From a virus, in the IMG/VR virus record IMGVR_UViG_3300007734_000495, positions 1 through 23,599 of that record: a DNA stretch of 23,599 nt; one strand, 5' to 3'. Position 1 is the stretch's first letter; each line of letters opens with the position of its first letter. Of this stretch, positions 5,153 to 23,126 are shown in pieces. Below the pieces are notes generated by a model, which did no database searches, was not told where the DNA came from, and saw nothing but the letters and a program-made list of their open reading frames with translations. Both the position numbers and the translations under genes were made by a program.

Positions 5153-5515
5153 TTAAAAAGTCAGAGATGGGTGTCTCGGCGGAGAATAATCATCGTCGTC
5201 ATCATCTTCTTCATTGTCTTCTTCAATCTCTTCCTCTTCATCTGAGTCTACAAAGAATTCAGATTTCTGATATTCGAACTCTTTGCTGCGAGAGTTCAGG
5301 TCTTCGGAGAGGCACATGCCTGCGCAAAAACTTTCAGTAACAATTTCCGCGCAGTCAACGGCAGATCGAGCTTCGCCTTCAGGGGATACGCACTCTTGCA
5401 GGAGCTGATTGGATACCAGTAGAGCACAGATCTTGTCGAGTTTGGCATTGGAAACCATCAGTTGATCGAGGATTGACTTCTGAAACGCCTCGAATTTATG
5501 TGATCTGGATGACAT
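5153..5515 (-). CDS. Small protein with a long acidic C-terminal tail
   Basis: Unrecognised, 120 aa. Residues about 5-45 look helical with a heptad-like pattern (FEAFQKSILDQLMVSNAKLD). The C terminus is extremely acidic (EEEEIEEDNEEDDDDDDY, about 93-111) and ends in a short tail with terminal Phe (PSLTF). Acidic tails ending in an aromatic residue occur on phage and bacterial ssDNA-binding proteins, where they recruit partners. No OB fold is seen here, so an adaptor or DNA-mimic role is only a guess. Its ATG overlaps the stop of the upstream methyltransferase-like gene by one base (TAATG), giving translational coupling. Confidence 0.75.
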   Translation of the reverse strand: MSSRSHKFEAFQKSILDQLMVSNAKLDKICALLVSNQLLQECVSPEGEARSAVDCAEIVTESFCAGMCLSEDLNSRSKEFEYQKSEFFVDSDEEEEIEEDNEEDDDDDDYSPPRHPSLTF

Positions 5516-19681: not shown

Positions 19682-19813
19682 ATGAAACCGGCTTACTTGG
19701 TTTATTTGGCAAACGTGCGTAAGGAATTAGCACGCAAGCACGCTGAGAATGTTCGGCAATTTAAGTGTGATCTGGGCAGCTCTGCTCCCTCAAAAGCTCC
19801 TATCATCGTTTAG
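19682..19813 (+). CDS. Possible 43-aa + strand ORF
   Basis: ATG at 19682-19684, TAG at 19811-19813. The product is basic and helical at first (YLVYLANVRKELARKHAENV) with a Ser/Pro-rich end. It overlaps the end of the convergent minus-strand gene by 24 bases. Upstream lies the AT-rich control region and a TATAAA at 19659-19664. Without homologues this may be chance. Confidence 0.35.
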   Translation: MKPAYLVYLANVRKELARKHAENVRQFKCDLGSSAPSKAPIIV

Positions 19814-19987
19814 TTTTTCGATCTGTTTCTCTAGAACAGATCCTTGATGCGCCATGGCGAAACCATCGGCGAATCCGCTCGCGAAGATAAAAACATCTTT
19901 ATCCGTGACAAAGTTGCGCTGTGTCTCCATCACAAGGTGTTCTCCTTGTTCGGATTCGATCTGAACCTTAACTTTGTAGTAATTCAT
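19790..19987 (-). CDS. Unknown 65-aa protein
   Basis: The start is taken at ATG 19987 because the longer frame runs through the repeated hairpin cassette. A beta-rich first part (YYKVKVQIESEQGEHLVMET) and a helical end (VLEKQIEKLND) are visible. No family is recognised. It is the gene served by cassette copy 1 and ends its cluster. Confidence 0.65.
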   Translation of the reverse strand: MNYYKVKVQIESEQGEHLVMETQRNFVTDKDVFIFASGFADGFAMAHQGSVLEKQIEKLNDDRSF

Positions 19988-20029
19988 GATCTGAGGATGT
20001 TGTATGAAGGCGGCCCCGCGAAGCGGGAG
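19988..20029 (-). repeat. Hairpin-leader cassette, copy 1
   Basis: The conserved 18-mer GGCCCCGCGAAGCGGGAG (+ strand, 20012-20029; one base change from the other copies, in the loop) forms CCCGC/GCGGG. It starts 4 bases after the stop of the upstream gene. The leader to the ATG is CT- and A-rich and diverges from copies 2-4. Confidence 0.8.
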
Positions 20030-20033
20030 GAGA

Positions 20034-20264
20034 TCAAACTGGCTGCTCCCGTTGAATGAACGCAACTTGCGCCATGCCGCGTGGGCGTAATTCTATGTAA
20101 TCGCCACAGTCGTAACGGTCGCACCGGACACCATTCCAACCAATCTCACGTTTGGCTCGCCGCACCGCTGTTACATCCGTAGCTTCGATGCAGTACTTTT
20201 CGACCCAGCTGTAGTTAGCTTGGCCGCCAAATGTGTCGGTGACTTCGATGAAGTAAAAAGCCAT
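20034..20264 (-). CDS. Unknown 76-aa phage protein
   Basis: Contains DTFGGQANYSWVEKYCIE (10-27), a motif I associate with a widespread family of small phage proteins of unknown function, then a helix (VTAVRRAKREIG) and a beta end. It starts 12 bases after the preceding stop, with a short ATCATC leader. Confidence 0.75.
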   Translation of the reverse strand: MAFYFIEVTDTFGGQANYSWVEKYCIEATDVTAVRRAKREIGWNGVRCDRYDCGDYIELRPRGMAQVAFIQREQPV

Positions 20265-20276
20265 GATGATTACAAG

Positions 20277-20507
20277 TTAAATGGATTGAAAAACAGGGTG
20301 TTCATAATTAGGTCGAACCAACCACATGTCGTAGGCTCGGTCAACACGAATCACGCCACGAAGTTCAAGTGATGATGCAACTCGGCGCGAGTCACGATCA
20401 CACTGAATGTGAAACGCTCGGTCAATCGCAGGCCCATAAAGTTCAATTTGTCGCCGCATGAATCCGATCATCTGCCGCTGCAGATAACCAAATGGTTGTG
20501 TCTTCAT
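20277..20507 (-). CDS. Small winged-helix-like protein
   Basis: 76 aa from the ATG at 20507; the longer frame overlaps the upstream gene and is rejected. RDSRRVASSLELRGVIRVDR (38-57) followed by YDMWLVRPN resembles the recognition helix and wing of a small wHTH protein. This fits an early phage transcriptional regulator, but the domain is too short to name. Confidence 0.66.
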   Translation of the reverse strand: MKTQPFGYLQRQMIGFMRRQIELYGPAIDRAFHIQCDRDSRRVASSLELRGVIRVDRAYDMWLVRPNYEHPVFQSI

Positions 20508-20523
20508 AATTAGTTTGTTGAAA

Positions 20524-20850
20524 TTACTGTTGGAAAGACGGAAGCTCGGGCTGCGTGGATACCTTTGTAACCTTGCCGGGTTCAAATGATTGCCACCGAT
20601 TAAATTCAGAGACAGTTACATTCACTCGGACAGAGTGTCGGTTTGTCCAGCTGGCGAAGTCTTTATCGAGTTGATAAAGCCCACCCCAATCACATCCTTC
20701 GTTGAAAGATGCAACGATGTGACCATAAGATCCCAGACACACAATTAGTCTGCGGGGCTTACCATTTGCATCATTGGATGTGCAGATGTGCAGCACGTTA
20801 TTAACGCGCCGGACGTTGAGATCATCCTCGTAATGTACAAAGTAAGTCAT
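20524..20850 (-). CDS. Unknown 108-aa protein
   Basis: Mainly beta at the start (TYFVHYEDDLNVRRVNNVLH, RLIVCLGSYGHIVASF) with a C-terminal polar tail. No family is recognised. Its ATG overlaps the stop of the zinc-ribbon gene by four bases, so translation is coupled. Confidence 0.72.
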   Translation of the reverse strand: MTYFVHYEDDLNVRRVNNVLHICTSNDANGKPRRLIVCLGSYGHIVASFNEGCDWGGLYQLDKDFASWTNRHSVRVNVTVSEFNRWQSFEPGKVTKVSTQPELPSFQQ

Positions 20851-21059
20851 GAGAGTGTGAGTCGATTGAGAAAGTAAGTGTAATCAGATTTCTTCGATTC
20901 AAGTAGAAGATCGTATTTATCGACCATTTTGTCGCACCCACGGCAACCTAAGGCACTAAAGCTGAAGTGAAACAGACGCAGTTCAGCGTTGCAGTGGGGA
21001 CAATAAACAACCTTGCCCGCTGCAGATGCACGAGTGTGCTTAGTTACAGTCTTAGTCAT
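20847..21059 (-). CDS. Small zinc-ribbon protein
   Basis: 70 aa. Two Cys pairs, CPHC (20-23) and CRGC (39-42), 15 residues apart, make a classic zinc ribbon. The N terminus is basic (TKTVTKHTR) and the C terminus helical. It overlaps both neighbours by four bases. Such small ribbons in phages often bind nucleic acid or host polymerase; no specific target is evident. Confidence 0.75.
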   Translation of the reverse strand: MTKTVTKHTRASAAGKVVYCPHCNAELRLFHFSFSALGCRGCDKMVDKYDLLLESKKSDYTYFLNRLTLS

Positions 21060-21307
21060 TTGATTTCAGGAGTAAGGAATTCGATAATTTCTTCAGTTGT
21101 GTAAAACTGTTTGCCCATAGCGGAGGGCTCTTTGTGTTCTTCTAGTTTCTCAACCCAAAACTCACGTTCGTGTTGATAAAACTGGATACCCTCGTGAAGC
21201 AGAATTTGCAGCATGTGTTCAACTGTGCGAAACTCTTTAGCTGCAAGTTGTTCCAGACAGTAACCTCCCATTTCAGTAAGGCTGACGGAATACTCTTTGC
21301 GTTTCAT
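21056..21307 (-). CDS. Ribbon-helix-helix-like small protein
   Basis: 83 aa. KEYSVSLTEMGGYCLEQLAA (4-23) followed by FRTVEHMLQILLHEGIQFY (26-44) has the strand-helix-helix pattern of CopG/RHH proteins. The C terminus is helical (TTEEIIEFLTPEI). The ATG overlaps the preceding stop by one base, with a GGAG about 9 bases upstream. RHH proteins are dimeric repressors, so it could control the cassettes or palindromes in this region; this is inference. Confidence 0.65.
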   Translation of the reverse strand: MKRKEYSVSLTEMGGYCLEQLAAKEFRTVEHMLQILLHEGIQFYQHEREFWVEKLEEHKEPSAMGKQFYTTEEIIEFLTPEIK

Positions 21308-21540
21308 TAGTTGTCTCCGTAAAGATTGAGTTTGGTGCGAAGTTTGTCGCAGTATTTAGCGAGTTGTTTGGGATACATAAGCTCGCTGTAATTACATAAG
21401 TATTCAGCAGCGAGGAGATGACGTTGTTCCCAATCGTCTTCGGTTTCGTTGAGATTTAGTTGGTGTTCGATGGCCTCCTGTATTTGAGAAACGGTGAACA
21501 GATCCAGTAGAGATTCTACTGTATGAGGTAGGTGTGTCAT
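21307..21540 (-). CDS. Unknown 77-aa helical protein
   Basis: Helical throughout (TVSQIQEAIEHQLNLNETED, LLAAEYLCNYSELM). Not recognised. It is the first gene of a five-gene coupled cluster and begins directly after cassette copy 2. Confidence 0.72.
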   Translation of the reverse strand: MTHLPHTVESLLDLFTVSQIQEAIEHQLNLNETEDDWEQRHLLAAEYLCNYSELMYPKQLAKYCDKLRTKLNLYGDN

Positions 21541-21584
21541 GTGATGAGAATGTAATTGTGTAATTTGGCCCCGCGTAGCGGGAG
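21541..21584 (-). repeat. Hairpin-leader cassette, copy 2
   Basis: GGCCCCGCGTAGCGGGAG on the + strand at 21567-21584 forms a CCCGC/GCGGG stem with a GTA loop. On the minus strand it is followed by TTACACAATTACATTCTCAT and then CAC before the ATG at 21540. The leader is nearly free of G, so it should be unstructured. Confidence 0.88.
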
Positions 21585-21607
21585 AGATACACAGCGTGGG
21601 AGCAAAC

Positions 21608-21778
21608 CTAATCGTCGATAGTTACATACTTTTCGATTTCGTCGATTGTTTTAGTTACACATTCCCAGGGGTCTGGTTCGATTGTTGACACCGGGATTCG
21701 ATCCACAGTCTCTTTGAGGTGAAACAAAAGCCCGGTCAGAGTGTCTTCATCGAGTGTGATTGTGTACTGTTTAGCCAT
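21608..21778 (-). CDS. Unknown 56-aa acidic protein
   Basis: ATG at 21776-21778, TAG at 21608-21610. A beta start (KQYTITLDEDTL) is followed by a helix (LLFHLKETVDR), then a Pro/Trp turn and a final helix (TKTIDEIEKYV). It starts 9 bases after the stop of the 132-aa gene. Not recognised, but the close packing and typical composition support it. Confidence 0.66.
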   Translation of the reverse strand: MAKQYTITLDEDTLTGLLFHLKETVDRIPVSTIEPDPWECVTKTIDEIEKYVTIDD

Positions 21779-21787
21779 AGTTACAGA

Positions 21788-22186
21788 TCACTTAGTTGCG
21801 GTTGCGATACAGCCGTCGGGGAGCCCACCTTGTTTGAGGACTTCATAATCCTCGGGAAGCATAATACCTAAACCAGGATCTTCCATACGTTTCAGTACGG
21901 TAAGTGTATCTAGGTTGACTTTGAGGTGATTGGTGAAGAACTTAAGGAGACTGTTGTAGACATCCTCCGGCAGATCTTCGGCTGTGTCGTAATGTTCGCG
22001 TGCGTTACTGTTTGCGCTAGGTGCGTAATAATGCACAGAGCGGGATCCGCAGGAATCTACCCACCAAAGCCCATAACCCTTAGGTTCAAGATGTTTGGTG
22101 CTGTAATGTTGCACAAACTGATCCATGTCGCGGTCAATAACAAGAACGATGGGCAGTTTGCCGTCATCGGAAGTGTTACCAGTCAT
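21788..22186 (-). CDS. Unknown 132-aa protein
   Basis: Segments PIVLVIDRDMDQFVQHY (12-28) and GYGLWWVDSCGSRSVHYY (37-54), then acidic helices (EDLPEDVYNSLLKFF) and a Gly/Pro-rich C terminus (PGLGIMLPEDYEVL). No family is recognised. It is the gene directly after cassette copy 3. Confidence 0.72.
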   Translation of the reverse strand: MTGNTSDDGKLPIVLVIDRDMDQFVQHYSTKHLEPKGYGLWWVDSCGSRSVHYYAPSANSNAREHYDTAEDLPEDVYNSLLKFFTNHLKVNLDTLTVLKRMEDPGLGIMLPEDYEVLKQGGLPDGCIATATK

Positions 22187-22237
22187 GATGTTAGTGATGA
22201 TGGTGTAAATGTGTGAGGCGGCCCCGCGTAGCGGGAG
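22187..22237 (-). repeat. Hairpin-leader cassette, copy 3
   Basis: The conserved 18-mer lies at 22220-22237, 3 bases from the preceding stop. The minus-strand leader CTCACACATTTACACCATCA continues to the ATG at 22186. The longest copy (51 bases). Confidence 0.85.
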
Positions 22238-22240
22238 AGG

Positions 22241-22408
22241 CTAAATAATGCGGCCCTCCGTTATGTCATCCAGCAATTCCTCGCACACGCTGTCATCCAC
22301 GCGCAGCAATAATGCCCGCGCAATAAACAACTCGTGCCCGTGGAGATCAATTAGCTCGCGCAGTTTGTCACGCGCTGATTGTCCATGTACGCGTTTGTAG
22401 ATGTCCAT
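22241..22408 (-). CDS. Unknown 55-aa helical protein
   Basis: ATG at 22406-22408, TAG at 22241-22243. Helical: SARDKLRELIDLHGHELFIA, then RALLLRVDDSVCEELLDDIT. Its local G+C is higher than its neighbours. It starts 20 bases after the preceding stop and ends just before cassette copy 3. Not recognised. Confidence 0.66.
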   Translation of the reverse strand: MDIYKRVHGQSARDKLRELIDLHGHELFIARALLLRVDDSVCEELLDDITEGRII

Positions 22409-22428
22409 GGTTGGGAAATCGGTAAAGG

Positions 22429-22638
22429 TTACACAAGAGCGTGACGATAATCGAGAGATTTAATACACCAACCTGTAGCGGCGGTGATCTCCTCTACTAA
22501 GTCATCTTCATCATCTGCTTCCCAGATTTGACCGATTGTTTCTTCGGTCACTTCTTGCTGATAATCGGGGTCTACATCACCCCAAGTATCATCATCAGAA
22601 GAAAAGTCAAAGTCGATGTAGGTTACTAAAAACTTCAT
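22429..22638 (-). CDS. Unknown 69-aa acidic protein
   Basis: The start is ATG 22638 (MKFLVTYIDFDF); an upstream in-frame ATG at 22656 is less likely. Very acidic middle (EADDEDDLVEEI) and a conserved-looking end TGWCIKSLDY (54-63), a pattern I associate with small phage proteins of unknown function. Confidence 0.7.
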   Translation of the reverse strand: MKFLVTYIDFDFSSDDDTWGDVDPDYQQEVTEETIGQIWEADDEDDLVEEITAATGWCIKSLDYRHALV

Positions 22639-22661
22639 GGCGGTAAAAGTGCTCACGTTAG

Positions 22662-23081
22662 TTAAATAGTGGACTTTGGTTGGCTTTTGAGTAGTTTCTC
22701 AACGTCAATCATTTCGCCCTGTTTGTCGTAATAAGTGCAGTCTGCGGACAATCCACTTCTGCTGTCGTAACTAACCCACACGACTTTCATAAAGTCGCTG
22801 CTCATCAGGTGAGCGTAATGGTCGGTAAGAAAGTCGAATACTTCACCGTCAGAGTTAGATTCCTCTGTGTCCATGTTGATGGTTAGTGTATTGTCTGCGA
22901 CGCTCACATAGGCTTCGAGAATGTCCGAAAACTCATCGAAAGAGTCGCAATTAAGCAGATCAGTAGGAGCCTCACTTTCGTGGTTAGTTAGGTAATCGTA
23001 GACCTGTGAAATTAGATCACTTGTGTCAATGACATTTGTAATCTGGCAAGTAGCTGTAGCGGCGTGTTGTGTGTAAGACAT
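22662..23081 (-). CDS. Unknown 139-aa acidic protein
   Basis: A helical N-terminal half (SDLISQVYDYLTNH, FDEFSDILEAYV) and a C-terminal part FMKVVWVSYDSRSGLSADCT (97-116) that resembles a motif of small phage proteins. No function is known to me. It is the first gene after cassette copy 4. Confidence 0.72.
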   Translation of the reverse strand: MSYTQHAATATCQITNVIDTSDLISQVYDYLTNHESEAPTDLLNCDSFDEFSDILEAYVSVADNTLTINMDTEESNSDGEVFDFLTDHYAHLMSSDFMKVVWVSYDSRSGLSADCTYYDKQGEMIDVEKLLKSQPKSTI

Positions 23082-23126
23082 TGTGATGTTGATGTAATTG
23101 TGTGAGTTGGCCCCGCGTAGCGGGAG
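23082..23126 (-). repeat. Hairpin-leader cassette, copy 4
   Basis: The conserved 18-mer lies at 23109-23126, 3 bases after the preceding stop. The minus-strand leader is AACTCACACAATTACATCAA followed by CATCACA, then ATG at 23081. Shares ACACAATTACAT with copy 2. Confidence 0.88.

Follow-up and report, generated by a model that had tools for sequence, protein, structure and literature searches.

An intergenic element composed of a short GC hairpin at the stop codon of one gene and an almost G-free leader before the ATG of the next recurs four times in the 23,599-nt stretch of viral DNA analysed here (IMG/VR virus record IMGVR_UViG_3300007734_000495, positions 1 to 23,599; hereafter the window, to which coordinates without a contig or locus name refer). 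The viruses that carry it are uncultured freshwater cyanophages distantly related to Synechococcus phage S-EIV1. An RNA element within a read-through transcript fits the data best, because the hairpin is linked to stop codons, its loop can itself contain the stop, and a G-free, open leader precedes the ATG. On a plausible if tentative reading, the element is a cis-acting RNA module of polycistronic transcripts, in which the hairpin would act as an insulator and the leader would load ribosomes without a Shine-Dalgarno (SD) sequence. In this mechanism, which presumes transcription through the element, the hairpin would form at the preceding gene's stop codon or across it and refold behind the terminating ribosome, cutting translational coupling to that gene. 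The open, A/C-rich leader would then permit de novo, SD-less ribosome loading at the gene that opens the next block, with the remaining genes of the block following via their short gaps. Each block, equipped with its own header, would be movable between phages independently of its neighbours.

Architecture and conservation of the element

All four copies in the window are read on the minus strand and share a single layout. In the direction of the genes, a stop codon is followed after 5-6 nt (25 nt in copy 2) by CCCGC-TWC-GCGGG, then by GCC, a nearly G-less leader of about 25-35 nt, and an ATG located 27-36 nt past the stem; no copy contains an SD word or a T run. The hairpin of copy 4 (23112..23124, CCCGC-TAC-GCGGG) lies 5 nt downstream of a TAA, and its leader (23082..23111, GCCAACTCACACAATTACATCAACATCACA) runs to the ATG. 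Copy 3 has the same hairpin sequence at 22223..22235, 5 nt after a TAG, with a leader at 22187..22222 (GCCGCCTCACACATTTACACCATCATCACTAACATC) that likewise reaches the ATG. The hairpin recurs unchanged in copy 2 (21570..21582), for which the closest upstream stop is a TAG at a distance of 25 nt; the leader at 21541..21569 (GCCAAATTACACAATTACATTCTCATCAC) again runs to an ATG. Copy 1 (20015..20027) has the variant CCCGC-TTC-GCGGG, with the TGA of the upstream gene ending 6 nt ahead of the stem and a leader at 19988..20014 (GCCGCCTTCATACAACATCCTCAGATC) that runs to the ATG at 19985-19987. A preliminary description of this DNA had reported four hairpins with a CCCGC/GCGGG stem, three of them near a preceding stop, and all four are located here, at distances of 6, 25, 5, and 5 nt for copies 1 to 4. 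The leader that it assigned to copies 2-4 is present there, but copy 1 has one as well, in a diverged version (CTTCATACAACATCC). The absence of an SD sequence before the ATG at the leader's end, also reported there, extends from the four window copies to the element leaders of related phages.

Besides these four, the 23.6 kb contain no perfect or one-mismatch CCCGCN3GCGGG, and no other short hairpin with an all-GC 5-bp stem occurs in the window. A chance repeat is ruled out by an expectation of about 0.02 copies of CCCGCN3GCGGG in the window (4^-10 per site, by our own arithmetic) against the four observed, by recurrence in relatives, and by enrichment of the stem at stop codons. A pattern scan of viral contigs for the hairpin and the start of the leader matched 40 stretches, and 88 exact copies of CCCGCN3-5GCGGGGC are distributed over 39 related viral contigs. 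These copies occupy one strand per contig, with a single exception (G003/L008), and the reversed pattern, used as a control, gave no copies. The matches at L008 and L015 are symmetric false matches, lacking leader and start. A covariance model finds about 100 copies in the carriers retrieved by pattern, placed between genes and with compensatory changes in the stem.

In 90 of 103 copies, the stop codon lies inside the loop, abuts the stem, or ends no more than 8 nt ahead of it; a stop in the loop is exemplified by CCCGC-TAA-C-GCGGG. Loops are chiefly TAAC, TTC, TAC, or TAGC and almost always conform to UN(N)C (UNC or UNNC) on the coding strand. The GC that follows the stem is near-invariant, even in copies not chosen for it, and the next base is usually C or G. 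Common forms of the hairpin have predicted energies of -7 to -8 kcal/mol. Among the pattern-selected loci, the all-GC 4-mer stem CCGC stands at stop codons 90 times and each of the 15 other such stems at most three times.

Where the stem sequence is replaced, pairing is kept, as in TCCGC/GCGGA (L009, L034), CTCGC/GCGAG (L081, L096, L109), and CCAGC/GCTGG (L013, L036, L027). A hairpin search of 124 loci that was blind to stem sequence returned 64 hairpins adjoining a stop and followed by a G-poor leader, 62 of which belong to this element family; their stems are CCCGC (55), CTCGC (3), TCCGC (2), and CCAGC (2), all fully paired, full pairing being a condition of the search. Two-sided changes occur at three of the five pairs, a level matched in 0 of 500 shuffles and in none of the slid controls; this set was found partly by requiring full pairing, and the model-derived set alone has such changes at two of five pairs. 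Starting instead from the leader side, again blind to the stem, 81 leaders were collected; five Watson-Crick pairs are present in 51, about 15 have either a wobble outer pair or a conserved core of four pairs, and the rest lack a convincing hairpin. L024 has a U-G outer pair, as may a few orthologous copies. These patterns support selection on the predicted hairpin, at the level of RNA or of palindromic DNA. Compensatory changes could also arise from a DNA palindrome; the RNA level is favoured because, on the coding strand, the loop almost invariably reads UN(N)C. The proposal that conservation of the element does not depend on the genes it serves agrees with its single orientation, intergenic position, compensatory stem changes, and SD-less leader. 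A related subfamily (L162, L164, L165, L166, and L169, in contigs G044, G045, G047, and G048) has a longer hairpin, CTCGCTCGCTTCGCTCACTGCGGGCC, ahead of the same kind of G-poor leader and may represent a second form of the element.

The leader itself is about 30 nt long, A/C-rich, and close to RACTCACACAATYACAYCAACATCAC. Whereas other leaders in these regions contain 14.7% G, those of the element contain 2.8%; SD 4-mers are found in 0 of 64 element leaders as against 11-13% of the others. Minimum-energy folding of the start region (-25..+25) gives a mean of -2.4 kcal/mol, compared with -5.3 and -4.7 kcal/mol for other genes (P<1e-6). SD-independent initiation is common in cyanobacteria, and a G-poor, open start region of this kind matches what would be expected of an open ribosome landing site in such hosts.

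Gene cassettes and their exchange

In transcription order, the elements of the window precede blocks of 3, 2, about 6, and 1 genes, all on the minus strand. Copy 4 precedes genes of 139, 75, and 55 aa (22241..23081), separated by gaps of at most about 20 nt. The block after copy 3 (21608..22186) comprises genes of 132 and 56 aa and has an 86% identical orthologue in a related 75-kb contig, where it is also preceded by the element. Copy 2 is followed by about six tightly packed genes (77, 83, 70, 108, about 79, and 76 aa; 20034..21540) and copy 1 by a single 65-aa gene (19790..19987). Blocks in relatives contain 1-6 genes. The median gap is 47 nt at element junctions and 8.5 nt at other junctions, which often overlap; because of this larger spacing, the element can be said to head blocks of otherwise packed genes. 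The gene region is non-structural and, judging from its position in the genome, probably expressed early.

Gene partners are extensively exchanged around the element. Gene families number 32 on the upstream and 29 on the downstream side of its roughly 100 copies and combine in many ways; one and the same upstream gene is followed by nine different downstream families, and the element accompanies the gene on its left and the gene on its right alike more often than expected by chance. The commonest gene behind it, found in 15 copies with 7 different upstream neighbours (L039 1419-1733 and 14 further copies), encodes a small RlpA-like double-psi barrel protein (PF03330) that is probably secreted. 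Downstream of the hairpin and CACACA, L042 and L026 have a sigma-70 promoter; in their relatives L010 and L039, a gene for an RlpA-like protein stands between element and promoter. The junction between presence and absence of this gene, compared between L010 and L042, falls in the CACACA of the leader, and the comparison of the two pairs illustrates gene gain or loss within the leader.

Ends of homology reach a density of 16.3 per kb in elements, 10.8 per kb at other gene junctions, and 1.6 per kb in genes, which corresponds to a 1.5-fold higher breakpoint density at elements than at other junctions. Conservation of neighbours does not differ between junctions with and without the element (21% vs 25%). 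Since the excess over other junctions is modest and the neighbour test is null, shuffling is attributed to the region as a whole and is not clearly caused by the element; a role for the element as the main breakpoint is not clearly supported by either measure.

Carrier phages and neighbouring signals

The window's DNA polymerase is matched at 56-92% identity in 29 of 37 carriers, most of the others probably being fragments. When relatives of this polymerase were gathered irrespective of the element, 10 of the 75 loci contained the element, many of these 75 being short fragments without the region; among longer contigs, 8 of 15 had it. Where contigs are longer (55-88 kb), copies are clustered within a few kb, and all 11 contigs checked, the window included, have them 7.4-13.8 kb upstream of the DNA polymerase and on its strand. 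Of 16 long contigs, 14 share, at 78-100% identity, a virion structural protein that weakly resembles portal proteins, and its sole relative among isolates is from Synechococcus phage S-EIV1 (46%). NblA-like matches are present in 12 of 16 contigs (e.g., G020:18506-18646, G035:53901-54041, and G011:18231-18365), with five above the curated cut-off; NblA, which serves in phycobilisome degradation, is characteristic of cyanobacteria with phycobilisomes and of their phages. The hosts are very likely cyanobacteria because of the S-EIV1-related virion protein and the NblA-like genes, and we infer that they are picocyanobacteria.

The element was not found in S-EIV1, nor, at the level of blastn, in a collection of phage isolates, and the window has no Rfam match at gathering score. 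The exact pattern is absent from 84,980 cellular species genomes, and a looser scan of cellular genomes gave 18 scattered matches, about the number that we estimate for chance, none of them cyanobacterial; on these scans, a host-derived element is rejected. No earlier description of the element was found in the open-access papers searched. A tyrosine integrase (G002:35618-36073) is encoded in only 1 of 17 contigs, and this member of the lineage may be temperate and most others not. Small proteins (open frames of 112-179 aa) with a helix-turn-helix resembling sigma-70 region 4 are encoded in 13 of 17 contigs (G002:37781-37873 and 12 others) and are candidates for a regulator or a terminase-like DNA-binding protein.

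Conventional signals are found at other sites of these phages. An intrinsic terminator (GAGCCCTCTCC..GGAGAGGGTTC, T-rich thereafter) is conserved just before the replication gene block (18349-18326 on the minus strand of the window; L054 6185-6208). A sigma-70-like promoter (TTTACA-N17-TATGAT or TATGCT) lies at 19068-19040 on the window's minus strand, with a conserved GGGCGGCACCGGCCC, or a sequence close to it, behind it, and the same arrangement recurs at L054 5466-5517 and in L021, L029, L037, and L038; it probably starts the next transcript toward the replication genes. A cloverleaf-like non-coding stretch (19168-19070, minus strand; L054 about 5380-5460) has a GGGAC...GTCCC end stem, a GCC-TGAA-GGC arm, a long middle arm, and a T-arm-like hairpin, GGGG-TTTGATT-CCCC. 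Neither ARAGORN nor Rfam makes a call on this stretch, and its folding energy is unexceptional; it looks like a degenerate tRNA or tRNA-like RNA.

Known systems and alternative readings

The preliminary description set the element apart from ordinary terminators and promoters alike, and the element's anatomy agrees with this view. A GC hairpin just past a stop codon resembles an intrinsic terminator, but the element has no U tract; in all copies the stem is followed by GC and the C/A-rich leader, with a start codon directly after, and a terminator search was negative at elements on the coding strand. A sigma-70 promoter is likewise rejected, as no -35/-10 hexamers spaced by 16-18 nt occur within the element, and only L026 and L042 have such a promoter, after it. 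The virion RNA polymerase of N4-type phages is a giant of about 3500 aa. An N4-type hairpin promoter is rejected for lack of such a polymerase, the largest open reading frame in the (possibly incomplete) 75-kb relative encoding a 917-aa primase.

In position and distribution, the nearest analogue is the SAS/ESAS system of Cluster K mycobacteriophages, with which the element shares a single orientation, non-structural genes, the ATG starts of many gene families, and larger gaps. SAS is a 13-mer, GGGATAGGAGCCC, with an SD core 3-7 nt from the start; ESAS adds an upstream inverted repeat of imperfect 17-mers, and the function of both is unproven (PMC3203893). The consensus of the present element differs, SD 4-mers are missing from all 64 leaders, its 5-bp hairpin sits at the upstream stop, its leader is G-free and SD-less, and its hosts are cyanobacterial. 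PeSL elements of T4-type phages, reportedly described in Arbiol 2010 and Comeau 2014, consist of an early promoter plus a stem-loop (see PMC4503421). The likeness lies in an intergenic stem-loop, a hypervariable region of small genes, and module shuffling; PeSL differs in requiring the early promoter, which has a counterpart in only 2 of about 103 copies of the present element, those followed by a sigma-70 promoter. Shuffling breakpoints, also associated with PeSL, are in modest excess at the present element over ordinary junctions (16.3 vs 10.8 per kb), and neighbour conservation is 21% vs 25%. Stoperators, known from the temperate Cluster A mycobacteriophages, are asymmetric DNA sites of 13 bp to which a monomeric repressor binds (PMC9283540). 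They too are dispersed, orientation-dependent sites in short intergenic spaces, but the present element is a palindromic hairpin with a variable loop, and an integrase is found in only one of the 17 contigs. By defining features, the element fits neither SAS/ESAS nor PeSL and probably not the stoperators, and it is classed here among the dispersed intergenic expression elements of phages.

Several observations weigh against the proposed insulation and restart of translation. Blocks of a single gene are the most frequent (43 of 78 element blocks). The hairpin is evidently not always needed, since leaders without one exist at L028:1152 and L031:1399 and the stem is broken at L036:9753. The stem is also far more uniform than stability by itself needs, which hints at a binding partner or a recent spread. 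Finally, SD words are rare in these phages in any case (the 11-13% given above), so that an SD-less leader is by itself not special.

The main rival, though a fairly unlikely one, is a role in RNA processing or stability, in which an endonuclease such as RNase E would cut near the stop or in the leader and the hairpin would protect the resulting end, so that mRNA stability is set separately for each cassette. The hairpin directly adjoins a long single-stranded A/C/U stretch, its placement at the stop codon is that of 3'-protecting hairpins, and conservation of CACACAAT and of the GC behind the stem exceeds the needs of pairing. RNase III, however, requires a stem longer than 5 bp, and a leader that reaches the ATG and is depleted of G throughout suits translation better. 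An improbable alternative is that the element tunes read-through between cassettes as a transcriptional pause, attenuator, or roadblock, whether by a pause hairpin or by stoperator-type protein-bound DNA. Its palindromic core is compatible with a DNA site, a Cro/C1-type helix-turn-helix protein is encoded in the 75-kb relative, and orientation-specific intergenic sites near stops recall stoperators (PMC9283540). Against this stand the missing U tract, a loop of 3 or 4 nt, which varies the stem spacing in a way unusual for a dimer site, and the almost constant UN(N)C form of that loop on the coding strand. The scarcity of integrase (1 of 17 contigs) implies, moreover, that a lysogeny repressor is not a general feature, and conservation of the leader up to the ATG is left unexplained.

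The exchange of gene partners raises the question of a DNA-level function, either as a shuffling site or as a selfish repeat, with short homology or the single-stranded hairpin serving as substrate for cassette-swapping recombination. Per kb, homology ends are tenfold more frequent in elements (16.3) than in genes (1.6), partners are widely exchanged, and the L010/L042 junction lies in the leader CACACA; but other junctions are nearly as dense (10.8 per kb), neighbour conservation is alike (21% vs 25%), and a conserved repeat by itself lengthens alignments. The strict stop-codon placement and the G-free leader would need an additional reason, and such a function is judged quite improbable. The phage-specific promoter entertained in the preliminary description, with hairpin and CACACAAT recognised by a phage or modified host polymerase, is highly improbable. 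The conserved block does stop shortly ahead of many ATGs, and the sigma-region-4-like proteins occur in 13 of 17 contigs, yet the element contains no hexamer pair at the usual spacing, and no single-subunit or N4-type phage RNA polymerase was found among the proteins searched in the 75-kb relative (largest open reading frame, 917 aa). Promoters of sigma-70 type (TTGACT-N16-TATAGT) occur elsewhere and, in two genomes, directly 3' of the hairpin, which lies upstream of a separate promoter and would thus fall outside its RNA. A stop codon at or in the conserved hairpin also points to a read-through RNA.

It is possible rather than probable that the element represents a new class of phage cis-RNA, a portable gene header in which a stop-codon hairpin insulates and a G-free leader restarts translation without SD, perhaps with a dedicated protein bound to the hairpin. 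Freshwater cyanophages heavily swap small genes without known function, and it is an open question how such a gene, once acquired, is expressed immediately in a polycistronic transcript. A hairpin on the stop side and a leader on the start side, both carried by the cassette, would answer part of it, as unrelated genes could be inserted into one polycistronic transcript and expressed at once. The element also provides a sequence tag for cassette boundaries in uncultured viruses and is a candidate for a compact, insulated, SD-less translation start in cyanobacteria.

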